NCBI GenBank assembly: GCA_017427885.1
Contig: JAFRRW010000001.1
Location: forward strand, 1-64,000
DNA length: 64,000 bases
Source of the DNA: Bacteroidales bacterium
Lineage (GTDB): Bacteria; Bacteroidota; Bacteroidia; Bacteroidales; UBA932
Direction of reading: 5' to 3'
Below are positions 4,582 to 63,600 of the stretch, one piece after another (the first letter of the stretch is position 1; the number at the start of each line of letters is the position of its first letter). The notes beneath the pieces were generated by a model. The model made no database searches and was not told the origin of the DNA. It worked only from the letters and a program-made list of their open reading frames with translations. Position numbers and translations under genes: made by a program.

Positions 4582-7500
4582 CGTACATGGCCTCACACTT
4601 GATGGAAGGCAGGGTGAACTCTCCGGCATAGGCTGCACGGAGGGTGGTCTTGAAGGACTTCGACACCCCTGCGGGAAGGCTGAAATACCATATCATCCTG
4701 TCATCCCTGACGTCGGTGTAGTCGCCGCCCTCCTGGGTCCTGCCAAGAAGGAGCCTCTCCCCGAATATCTCCCAGCCGGAAGGTATGGCCATCGTGAGGG
4801 CGAGGGAAGAATAAGTTGCGGCTCCGCCGGTGTTGGTGACGGTTATTACTGAGTTGAATTCCGTCCCCTGTACGAGACTGGTCGGATCGACGGGTTTGCC
4901 GCCCATATCCTGATAGGACACCTTCAGGGAAAGGCCTTCCGCCCTCGGACGGATTCCTTCGGAAGGAGCCTCGCCGACAGTGGTGAGAACCGCATAAACG
5001 GGACCCTCGGCATTGTTCCTTACCTCAACCTGTCCGCTTCCATCCTTGAGAGAATGCGTTATGACGCTCTTCGCGCTCCTGAGATTCTTGGTCTCCCCTC
5101 CCTGGATAACATCCAGGTCGAAGGCCTCGGACGACACCTTGGAGGCGAGCCTGTTCAGGGCCGAGGCCGCGAAAGCGGTTTCCTGCGTCACGTACCATCC
5201 AGGAGACAGGGCCTCTGCGATTCCCTTCGAGGCGTCGAGGGCCTGGGGAACCATATCGGCGAGGACCAGGGCGTTCACGACCACCGCCCGGTCCCTCAAG
5301 GGTGACGAATATGTCAGGTCGTCGGCAGGCCTTGAGGAAGGACCGTCACCGATCGAGGATATCATTCCGGAAGCCACATTCTTCCTTCCGCAGAGGGAGT
5401 ATGCGGCGGAAAGCATCCATCCGGCCTTTACCGAAAGGTTAGGGTTCTCCTTCAGGCGGTTCATCGCACCGTTGTCCGGTTCTGAGGAAAGGGCGAGGGT
5501 GTACAGCCTGTAGGCCTGGTCGAGGTCGGATGTGCCTGAAGGAGAGTATCTCCACTCCCTGGCAACCCTCTTCTGGAAGTTCGACCAGCTGGCCTTGACG
5601 GACCTGCTGACAGGATAGCCGGCCTCGGCGGCGAGTGTAAGGAACTCTCCGGCCATCGAGGTCACCCACCGGTCGGATACGGCGCTCGAGGGCCAGAGCG
5701 AGAAGTCTCCTCCTGGCAGCTGCCTGGAATACAGGGAATTCAGGAGGCCCGGTATCATATCCCCGGCTTCCTCCGAACTCGCCGCATCCAGGAAGTCCCT
5801 GATGGAAAGGAGGATGATTCCCTTCGCCGCAATCTGTTCGGTGCAGTCGTAAGGATAGGACTTGACCCAGTCGAACACAGACTTGTAGTCGATGCAGGGG
5901 AAGGAGGAGAATTCAACCGTCGCGGGAGAAACGAGGTTTCCGGGGATGTTGAATTTCCAGGAAGATTTCCCGTTTATGGCAGCCCTGGTCACATCGGTGA
6001 CGGGAGGGTTGGGATCCCTGACCTCTATTGATATGGTCTGGGATGCCTTGTGGCCGCCTCCGGTGGCGGTGACGGTTACCGTCGCCGGGCCGGTTCCCGT
6101 GGAAACCAGGGAGAACGCGGCCAGCTTGTCACCTTCACCTGAGAAGGTGACTGCGGTACGTGAAGGTCCTTCGACCTTGAGGGGTCCGCTCACGCTGACC
6201 TCTACGTCGGCGGATTTGACATTGTCTTCCATCGCGAAGACGTTCACGGGAAGGCTGACCTTCTCACCGGTTCCGAGAACCCTCGGGAGGGAAGGAAGGA
6301 CCATCAGCGGGGACCTCACGGGTACGGTCTTGTCCGCGCTGCCGTAGGCCCCGTCCTCACCGGCCACTACCATAACCCTCACGCTGCCCACATACATCGG
6401 AAGCTTAACGGTATGCGAGGCCGATCCGCTCGTCAGGGAGAAAGGTCCGAGGAATTTGACCACGGGATTGAAGCGGTTGTCCCTGCGGGTGTTCACTATG
6501 ACGCTCTGGTCTCCTCCTATGCTGAACATCGGGGAGAAACGTCCGTTATACGCCCCGATCACCTGGTCGTAGATGTCCCATGTCTTCACCCCAAGGGCCT
6601 CCCTCGCATAGAGGGCGTTCCAGGGATCCGGAGTCTTGAAGTTGGTCAGGTCCAGGAGTCCCTCGTCCACGATGGCGAGGGTGTATGTCATAGGCTTGCC
6701 GTCCTTTTCCTTCACCTTGACCGTGAAAGCCTCCTCCGGACGCACCGCATCAGGCATCGTGATGACGGGTTCCAGGGCCGTTGACGGATCTTCCACAAGC
6801 ACCGGACGGACTCCGTAGAGCCTGATGGGCAGGTCGCTGCCTGTTTCGGCGTGAGGCTGCAGAAGGGTGACGTGGATATAGAAATTGGGGGCCAGGTCAC
6901 CCGTAATCTTCAGTTTGTAAGTGACATCCTTCCCGTCTATTTCAACCCATTTCCGGGATATGACTCCCCTGGAATTCTCAATCGACACCAGGGCTTCGCC
7001 CCTTGCCGCCGCGGGAATGAACACGGAAGCCGTCTCCCCTGCCACGTACGAATCCTTGTCAGTGCTGAAGGAAAGCATCGTCAGGGCCGAAGGGTCCGTC
7101 TTTCCGGACCTTCCCCTGTATGCAGGCCAGTCGACGTAGATCACCCCTCCGCTGATATGACCGCTCCCCGTGTCGCGGACATATACGAGATATCTTCCCC
7201 AGTCGGGATAATCTATCCTGAACGGCACGGTGGCATCCTTCTCTCCGGAGATGACCTCTCCCGACGAGATGAGTTCGGATCCCACGCCATTCACATAAGA
7301 ATCAAAGTTTTCAGCCCTTGATTCCCACCACCAGCTCCACTGGAGCTTGTATATCCTGTATTCCACCTTCCTTCCGGAAATCCTCTTTCCATCGGGATCC
7401 ACGACCACCACCCCGAGAGGATGGTCGGTGTCGGTTTCCACATATCCTTCCCTGCCGCTGTCCGGAAGTTTCACTCCCACATAACTGTCATACGGGGAAT

Positions 7501-35814: not shown

Positions 35815-36348
35815 ATGAAAAACCGCAAACTTCTCAGCATAGAGCTCGGCCGCATCTCTCCGGAGCAGTACAAGACAAGGGAACCCTCAGGTCTTGTCCT
35901 CGTCCTGGACAATGTCAGAAGCGCCCATAACGTGGGTTCGGCCTTCCGTTCCGGAGACGCCTTCGGGGTGGACAGGATCTTCCTCTGCGGCATAACAGCC
36001 GTCCCTCCCTCGGCCGAAATCCACAAGTCGGCCCTCGGAGCCGAGGACAGCGTCCCCTGGGAGCGTTGCGAATCAGCCCTGGAAGCGGTCGGGAGACTGA
36101 AAGAGGATGGTTACACCGTGGTCAGCGTGGAGCAGACCGTACAGTCCGTCAGGCTGGACTCCTTCACACCGGAAAAGGGGAAGAAATACGCCCTCGTCTT
36201 CGGAAATGAAGTCGAAGGCATCGGCCAGGACGTGGTCGATGCCTCCGATATCTCCCTGGAAGTGCCCCAGCAGGGAATCAAGCATTCCCTAAACGTCTCC
36301 GTCTGCATCGGAGTCATCCTCTGGCACTTCAGGTATCTTCTGGGTTAA
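35815..36348 (+). CDS. TrmH/SpoU-family RNA 2'-O-methyltransferase (single domain)
   Basis: The 177-residue protein is a SPOUT-fold methyltransferase that uses S-adenosylmethionine on tRNA or rRNA ribose. The three family motifs are present: LDNVRSAHNVGSAFRSGDA (about 34-52), LVFGNEVEGIGQDV (about 130) and QQGIKHSLNVSVCIGV (about 152-167). It has no extra RNA-binding domain, unlike the second family member at 62673. The target base cannot be told from sequence. The chosen ATG lies just after a -7 box. The stop codon forms the first bases of the long inverted repeat at 36346-36463. Confidence 0.92.
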   Translation: MKNRKLLSIELGRISPEQYKTREPSGLVLVLDNVRSAHNVGSAFRSGDAFGVDRIFLCGITAVPPSAEIHKSALGAEDSVPWERCESALEAVGRLKEDGYTVVSVEQTVQSVRLDSFTPEKGKKYALVFGNEVEGIGQDVVDASDISLEVPQQGIKHSLNVSVCIGVILWHFRYLLG

Positions 36349-36463
36349 AAACATTTCGGTACTTTTTCAGATGACGCCGCTTCGCGGCCCCTCTCCAAGG
36401 GGCCCCTCCCTCTCATCTTGCCGAGGGTGGCAGAGTCACTGAAACAGTACCGGAATGTTTTTA
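36346..36463. repeat. 118-bp inverted-repeat element between convergent genes
   Basis: The arms 36346-36370 and 36439-36463 are inverted repeats of 25 bases with 23 matches; one mismatch would be a G-U pair in RNA. The 68-base centre has nested hairpins: GCCGC-TTC-GCGGC and CCCCT-CTCC-AAGGGG. Each arm holds the TAA stop of the adjacent convergent gene, and T5 runs occur at both outer ends, so it can serve as a bidirectional terminator. The size and nesting also suggest a mobile palindromic element. Its core does not align with the repeat family at 55985 and 63522. Confidence 0.75.
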
Positions 36464-55780: not shown

Positions 55781-56365
55781 ATGATCGTTTCCCTAACAGG
55801 TTTCATGGGCTCGGGAAAGAGCAGCGTCGGGAAAGTTCTTGCCGAAAAACTCTCGTGCCCTTTCGTCGACCTCGATTCCCTCATAGAAACCGGCGAAGGC
55901 CGTTCAATCCCTGAAATCTTCGCCTCCGGCGGCGAAGCCCTTTTCCGCAGCCTTGAACTGAAATACCTTGACACGCTGCTTGATGGAGCGGCGGCACCGC
56001 AAGGGCTCGCGGTTACTAAGGCTTCGCCAAAATGCTCGCCCTTGTCGGTGCCGACCGCTCCCATTGACATTGTGCTGGCGCTGGGAGGAGGGACGCTGAC
56101 GAAAGAGGAGTGTGCGGAGCTAGTGAGGGAGAAGACGTTCTGCGTCTATCTCAGGGCTTCGGCAGAAACTCTGGTGGAAAATCTCAGAGGATCGGAGGAA
56201 GGGCGGCCGATGCTTGCGGGAGGAAGCCTGGAGGACAAGGTGGAAGAACTCCTTGCAAAGCGGGAGAGCCTGTATGAGGGTACCGCCCGCGCCATAATCG
56301 ACACCGACGGCCAGACCTACGGCGAGACGGCGGAGGCCGTCATTGCCGTCCTGGCCTTATCATAA
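55781..56365 (+). CDS. aroK: Shikimate kinase with 26-residue repeat-derived insertion
   Basis: The enzyme phosphorylates shikimate with ATP in aromatic amino acid synthesis. The 194-residue protein has Walker A GFMGSGKSS, shikimate-binding FVDLDS (Asp30, Asp32), GEALFRSLE, LALGGGT (102-104) and RPML. Normal family members have about 165-175 residues. The excess lies at residues 69-94, between the helix after FRSLE and the strand before GGG, and is encoded by an imperfect DNA palindrome (55985-56061) homologous to the intergenic repeat at 63522-63600. The frame is kept and all catalytic motifs remain, so the enzyme is probably active with a surface loop. It follows the parC-like gene by 3 bases. 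Confidence 0.9.
   Translation: MIVSLTGFMGSGKSSVGKVLAEKLSCPFVDLDSLIETGEGRSIPEIFASGGEALFRSLELKYLDTLLDGAAAPQGLAVTKASPKCSPLSVPTAPIDIVLALGGGTLTKEECAELVREKTFCVYLRASAETLVENLRGSEEGRPMLAGGSLEDKVEELLAKRESLYEGTARAIIDTDGQTYGETAEAVIAVLALS
55985..56061 (-). repeat. Palindromic repeat inserted in frame in aroK
   Basis: The arms 55985-56006 and 56038-56061 are inverted repeats (about 22 matches with two single-base gaps). Read on the minus strand, the segment from the second arm into the centre runs GGCACCGACAAGGGCGAGCA, and GGCG, AGCC and GCGAGC follow in the same order and spacing as in the copy at 63522-63600. The arm-to-arm length is 77 bp; with one flanking base it gives 26 codons. Confidence 0.8.
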
Positions 56366-63500: not shown

Positions 63501-63521
63501 CATTTCTAGCATACATCCACA

Positions 63522-63600
63522 TACAGTACAGGTACCGGCATAAGCGAGCATTGCGGCGGCAGCCGTGTATTCTGCGAGCGTTGCCGGTACCTGTACTGTA
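63522..63600. repeat. Intergenic palindromic repeat with perfect 19-bp arms
   Basis: The arms 63522-63540 and 63582-63600 are perfect inverted repeats (TACAGTACAGGTACCGGCA) around a 41-base centre. The centre has GCGAGCATT, GGCG, AGCC and GCGAGC in the same order and spacing as the copy inside aroK (55985-56061, inverted). It lies between two convergent genes and has no T tract, so it is not a standard terminator, though the hairpin could stall polymerase or protect mRNA ends. Confidence 0.85.

Follow-up and report, generated by a model that had tools for sequence, protein, structure and literature searches.

The window, the whole 64,000-nt stretch of DNA that was analysed, contains a shikimate kinase gene, aroK, that is interrupted in frame by a palindrome, and an intergenic palindrome with the same core. 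The features are as follows.

55781..56365, plus strand: aroK, shikimate kinase, with an in-frame insert (residues about 69-94); open reading frame, Pfam PF01202, structure model
55985..56061, minus strand (the core reads 5'-3' on minus): class B palindromic element within aroK; fold, covariance model (80 bits, E 4.1e-17)
55985..56005, no strand assigned: left arm of the aroK element, GGAGCGGCGGCACCGCAAGGG in gene sense; sequence, fold
56005..56039, minus strand: conserved cap and apical core of the aroK element, GCGAGC ATTTT GGC GAA GCC TTAGTAACC GCGAGC; sequence
56040..56061, no strand assigned: right arm of the aroK element, imperfectly complementary to the left arm; sequence, fold
63522..63600, plus strand: intergenic class A copy; covariance model (62.9 bits), hairpin scans

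On the minus strand the aroK palindrome is ordered arm, GCGAGC, ATTTT, GGC GAA GCC, TTAGTAACC, GCGAGC and arm. As DNA it folds at -30.2 kcal/mol, as compared to -15.7 +/- 2.4 for its shuffles (z -6.1; 0/200 shuffles equally stable), and as RNA the other strand folds at -54.7 (z -7.6). The original prediction of an inverted repeat in frame within aroK is thus confirmed, the reading frame being open and the fold lying beyond that of the shuffles. It also stated correctly that the same core occurs in an intergenic palindrome of opposite orientation: the aroK core is common to 63544-63579, and the pattern occurs twice in the window vs a mean of 0.00 in 100 shuffles. The copy at 63522-63600 has perfect 19-bp arms (63522-63540 and 63582-63600) and GCGAGC caps at 63544-63549 and 63574-63579. 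In a GC-corrected ranking of the 64 kb by 90-base windows, the hairpin at 63521 is first (z -5.61) and that at 55981 second (z -4.53), the latter by a narrow margin over a third at 6061 (z -4.52). A second scan (100-base windows, 464 kb) gives the aroK hairpin a z of -3.5, and stronger hairpins exist elsewhere in that DNA. A further inverted repeat of the window, 25 nt long, 92% complementary and with 68 nt between the arms (36346-36463), is without the element motif.

Pfam SKI (PF01202) matches the kinase in two stretches (E 1.1e-37). The span from FR to GGG is 50 residues in the window kinase; in 22 other aligned relatives, a comparison that omits four with evident inserts, the median is 30 and the range 26-42, apart from L048, whose value of 86 reflects an earlier FR picked up by the pattern. 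The figure of 26 added residues is approximate, the span being about 20 residues above the relatives' median. Against the solved chain 1l4u the excess is 25, query residues 60 and 93 aligning to 62 and 70. The AlphaFold2 model (34 sequences) has a mean pLDDT of 91.4, with means of 54-55 in the insert blocks; the insert is located in the loop that connects helix 43-68 to strand 97-100, and the best PDB matches of the model are shikimate kinases. In this predicted structure the kinase fold is kept and the insert is a low-confidence loop, which is in keeping with the proposal that the enzyme tolerates it. The window's segment is absent from the aroK of relatives; in 4 of the 26 other sequences of the aroK alignment, different inserts occupy that position. 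Another in-frame insert with a REP-like look (EIPDQVGDDGGSVVMPGPD) is present in the RPLL..SR region of L059, the aroK of genome G003. L041 (G009 aroK) and L114 (G048 tsaC) have one in-frame stop each in their matches, TGA and TAA.

The element is repeated in its own genome (G000; 1.87 Mb, 17 contigs, 81% complete). A 20-base core, allowing up to 3 mismatches, is found at 6 places vs 0 for the pattern read backwards, and a covariance model built from eight aligned copies gives 27 matches with E no higher than 1, including 25 with E no higher than 0.002. When sorted by core, 18 belong to class A, 7 to class B, and 2 are divergent (L032, E 0.0045; L033, E 0.06). Class B consists of copies in aroK, tsaC, dnaX and, twice, dsbD, plus two intergenic copies after a dnaK-like gene; the five copies inside genes keep the frames open. 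The only frame across L013, one of the two copies after the dnaK-like gene, is long and antisense to that gene, and we take it as spurious. Among the class A copies, 17/18 are without a spanning frame of 240 bases, the remaining one, L029, having a frame of just 240, and 10/18 lie between convergent frames, all frames in this survey being called by length without a gene finder. That the element occupies both intergenic and coding DNA and keeps frames is thus supported, with the qualification that coding copies were identified through their open frame, and gene-breaking copies would not count as coding. The core is read in three different frames/strands, one in aroK, one in dnaX and tsaC, and one in dsbD. 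Class A and class B are two lineages with different location habits; neither this division nor the lack of conservation in the arms was foreseen. Upstream of the main class A copy, L027 and L029 have a second copy with its 3' arm lost or replaced; doublets of copies also occur in genome G208 (L067, L069).

A hairpin scan of the window and a 400-kb sample of contig C11 yielded 84 candidates, and in-frame palindromes with similar caps are also present in rsmH, atpB and murB (names by Pfam). The atpB copy, L032 and the palindromes at C11:103270 and C11:109539 have a common core like TTTCCTAAATCTTC and different arms. When 14 arms were searched, leaving out those of the many stem-sharing class A copies, an arm in common with another copy was seen in the dnaX/tsaC pair and in the tandem copies that follow dnaK, and in no others. 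Within the DNA covered, 464 kb plus loci of the own genome, copying of the arms from elsewhere was considered and rejected: with self, partner arm, neighbouring copy and the dnaX/tsaC pair set aside, none of the 14 arms has a match better than 14/14 bases (E 0.02).

From their sequence, the two GCGAGC boxes can pair via a tandem G.A step. A tandem G.A cap, CGARC...GNGAG, is common to most copies; dnaX and tsaC have CCGAGC/GCGAGG, a paired change in the boxes, and exact GCGAGC boxes are absent from some copies (L011, L016). In 35 distinct rows, 12/16 stem pairs have changes on both sides, with a covariation score of 0.236 vs 0.105 for shuffled and at most 0.110 for slid alignments, although the alignment was fitted to the model and leans towards the structure. 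Pairing is found in 76% of stem cells, and 4/19 modelled pairs are broken in most rows. The stems vary and the ends of the element are not fixed.

The window's element is nearly absent from relatives. With stricter filters, which leave 25 matches in G000 itself, the model has no match at E 0.01 in 40 relatives (24 of the same genus, 16 of the same order). A still less sensitive search of 400 genomes, in which G000 gives 13 matches, found 1 clear other genome among 399, G208, with 11 class A-like copies; single matches in G056 and G093 (E 0.006-0.009) are without the element motif. The tsaC insert is present in only its own row of 36 (35 genomes), and G048 tsaC has a short extra segment of its own. 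From the copy number and the near-absence in relatives, we infer that the element has moved.

A second family, core2, was first seen in the aroK inserts of relatives: those of G042 and G007 have a common core and largely different arms, and the other two aroK inserts are related shorter segments. The core matches 52/151 same-genus genomes but not G000. The 71 loci read (8 without a parse) gave 65 element rows; the analysis set comprises 54 rows from 25 genomes, selected for 15 or more arm pairs and a core length of 45-75 nt. The arms average 26.8 pairs, with pairing at 93% of their positions. Two copies in G058 and one in G088 have identical 67-nt cores flanked by 28-35-pair arms whose identity is 0.20, 0.40 and 0.45 (20 ungapped positions). 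Mean arm identity is 0.28 for pairs with cores under 80% alike and 0.56 for the 63 pairs with cores at least 97% identical (18 below 0.45, 8 at 0.8 or more), many of the 63 coming from G074, G081 and G135, which have part of the arms in common, and one being the site shared by G042 and G082. Core2 arms are thus neither simply inherited nor always new. A fixed centre with differing, long, matching arms suggests local rewriting of the arms. Core and arms can also travel together, since most class A copies in G000 have common arms, as do dnaX and tsaC, and those of G074, G081 and G135 are partly common. The notion of one fixed insertion point per gene was discarded, aroK and lpxB holding different elements at nearby points.

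Comparison of sister species shows how core2 arms change. The aroK copies of G042 and G082 differ at 6/109 positions, which comprise a compensated change in one arm pair, the inversion of the loop AGAAT to its reverse complement ATTCT, and a single base. In a second copy common to both genomes, one arm pair has changed with compensation and the core has three base changes and indels; a third is identical (118/118). No single arm change is found in these three copies; in truB of G097 vs G147 one arm change is uncompensated. Concerted arm changes together with a spacer inversion thus occur between close relatives in core2, as template switching predicts. These footprints are known from core2, the window copy having no close relative for comparison.

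The gene compared for host DNA in the arms is one that we take to be lpxB. A first comparison covered seven genomes, and a search of 200 then gave 177 matches. Usable element-free linkers number 28, with 19 long-linker relatives for scoring; the set is without L403 (a degraded core2 copy), two duplicate genomes, rows whose sequence was unparsed (among them L415, L418, L420, L422-L424, L426-L428, L441 and L445), and L433-L437, five long linkers that may hold inserts of their own. The linker of L437 (G195) contains a long palindrome whose centre is different and shorter, and which may belong to a further family. In 11/28 element-free linkers the first residue is V, I or A and the second W, Y or F, and the same pair lies inside the upstream arm in G042 and G139, with a reverse copy on the other side. 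Taking the upstream arm as native fits best in G042 (14/19 long-linker relatives), G139 (11/19) and G021 (13/19). In G202 both arms look inserted (16/19), and the scoring of G082 against the 19 favours neither option. The core is present in both orientations, one in G042 and G139 and the other in G021 and G082. G042 and G139 seem to have a single old insertion in common, of which G185 seems, from its sequence, to hold a decayed copy; the independent cases are therefore few. For host codons in an arm, one old lpxB site is good evidence, a second fair, one is undecided and one speaks against. This evidence for a host origin of an arm comes from core2 in lpxB and none of it from the window's own element, for which length and similarity comparisons in aroK and tsaC point neither to a native nor to an inserted arm. 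In G048 lpxB (L372), a coreless 11-bp palindrome mirrors the SSGL codons; it either arose on the spot or is what remains of a core since lost.

The repetition of the element, its near-absence from relatives, its residence in open frames of conserved genes and the paired changes of its stem are established by these data. They are probably best read as the work of a palindromic insertion element that is non-coding, present in many copies and about 75-80 bp long, with a conserved cap and a stem whose sequence may change while it stays paired; the element would spread to new sites, and template switching would rewrite its stem. The element would be copied into new sites by an enzyme supplied in trans. 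Copies would spread within the species to intergenic DNA (class A) and to frame-compatible sites in genes (class B and look-alikes), and selection would retain only those gene copies that add a tolerated loop and leave the frame open. Template switching at the hairpin as it is replicated would later rewrite the stems and preserve their pairing, one side being copied onto the other, at times with neighbouring host DNA. Such rewriting would explain the identical core2 cores with little-related arms. A tentative alternative, with a lesser though appreciable chance of being right, is that the mobile element is the short fixed core only and that the long arms are built from host DNA at each landing site, both families being instances. 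Insertion might bring in, besides the core, an inverted duplicate of the host DNA next to it; alternatively, the palindrome might grow outward later via template switching.

The other explanations are less probable to differing degrees. An ordinary REP/MITE family, moved with its arms by a Y1 RAYT-type transposase and with arm differences due to old divergence and compensatory change, is unlikely. G000 does have two RAYT-like genes, L082 (C11:310528) and L091 (C10:120366), and at 81% completeness could be missing a third; class A arms are mostly common, the frequent position between convergent frames is one that REPs favour (PMC3733652), and the arms of L012 resemble those of G208. However, both RAYT-like genes are flanked by palindromes of their own (CTGCGGGAGATGTCCC.. 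and GCGTGAAGGTCCA.., respectively), unlike the window's element, of which (R1) there are 0 matches in 12 RAYT loci searched out of 30 fetched, both G000 loci included. G208, which has copies and is 88% complete, gives no match to the RAYT domain, and identical core2 cores with little-related arms do not fit a constant inheritance of arm with core. The suggested RAYT partner is thus not supported, and mobilisation by these two genes was set aside. Further copies of the palindrome that flanks L082 are present in the C11 sample. Neither a mobiliser nor a target duplication nor a within-species empty allele was found, and the insertion borders are not fixed.

A structured RNA motif conserved for a function in the transcript, such as a terminator, mRNA stabiliser or binding site, would account for the strong RNA fold and for the class A copies between convergent frames. 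It is improbable, as 7 loci give no Rfam match at gathering score (best below it, E 0.17), core2 is present in unrelated genes and in both orientations within lpxB, and nearly all of the relatives searched lack the window's element. We give still less credence to host sequence turned palindromic in place by template switching with no mobile element, as proposed for Nematomorpha (PMC6649704), even with the template-switch footprints between sister species and the coreless palindrome in G048 lpxB in its favour. The cores are repeated, with the 27 matches in G000 and with 67 nt identical at three places in two genomes, and their repetition at unrelated loci makes template switching in place only half of the story. 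Least credible of all is that the inserts are hopped over by the ribosome and not translated, as reported for mitochondrial palindromes of Magnusiomyces (PMC6649704). The inserts are indeed hairpins in coding sequence, but the named coding copies have an open frame, which bypass does not need, although an open frame is also how they were identified.

In-frame palindromic elements are best known from Rickettsia. Among the open-licence PMC papers listed, none deals with such elements in Bacteroidales, and they are now seen in an uncultured genus of that order, in genes for replication, cell wall, tRNA/rRNA modification and ATP synthase. Copies in which the core is identical and the arms are well paired but little related make up a natural series on the origin of palindromes, the upkeep of their pairing and new peptide segments in proteins.

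Several known systems resemble the element in part. Rickettsia palindromic elements (RPEs) are short palindromes of about 105-150 bp, present in many copies, intergenic as well as in frame in conserved genes, and are described as encoding a conserved peptide (PMC10969869, PMC2229807). The element described here is likewise a palindromic repeat in many copies, some in frame within genes, and may be said to work like an RPE, a likeness of features with no claim of membership. Its copies are different in being about 77 bp, in having variable arms and a Bacteroidales host, and in lacking a conserved peptide, the core being read in three frames/strands. REP/BIME palindromes are often located between convergent genes, with some within ORFs (PMC3733652), as are the copies here, whereas the RAYT-like genes of G000 are flanked by other palindromes. 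Correia/NEMIS MITEs have two related forms, an open one that is intragenic and a closed one that is almost exclusively intergenic (PMC2229807), much as class B and class A; here the borders are not fixed, and neither a terminal repeat of a known insertion sequence nor a target duplication was identified. Nematomorpha mitochondria carry long, nearly perfect palindromes in translated genes, with arms kept identical and template switching proposed as their origin; the parts of that report consulted describe no repeated core (PMC6649704), in contrast to the conserved core at the centre here. Template-switch mutations create and repair stems (PMC8794818) and leave paired arm changes and spacer inversions (PMC8604942). 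Those descriptions concern a mutation process and connect it to no mobile core, and the paired arm changes and spacer inversion of core2 are of the same kind.
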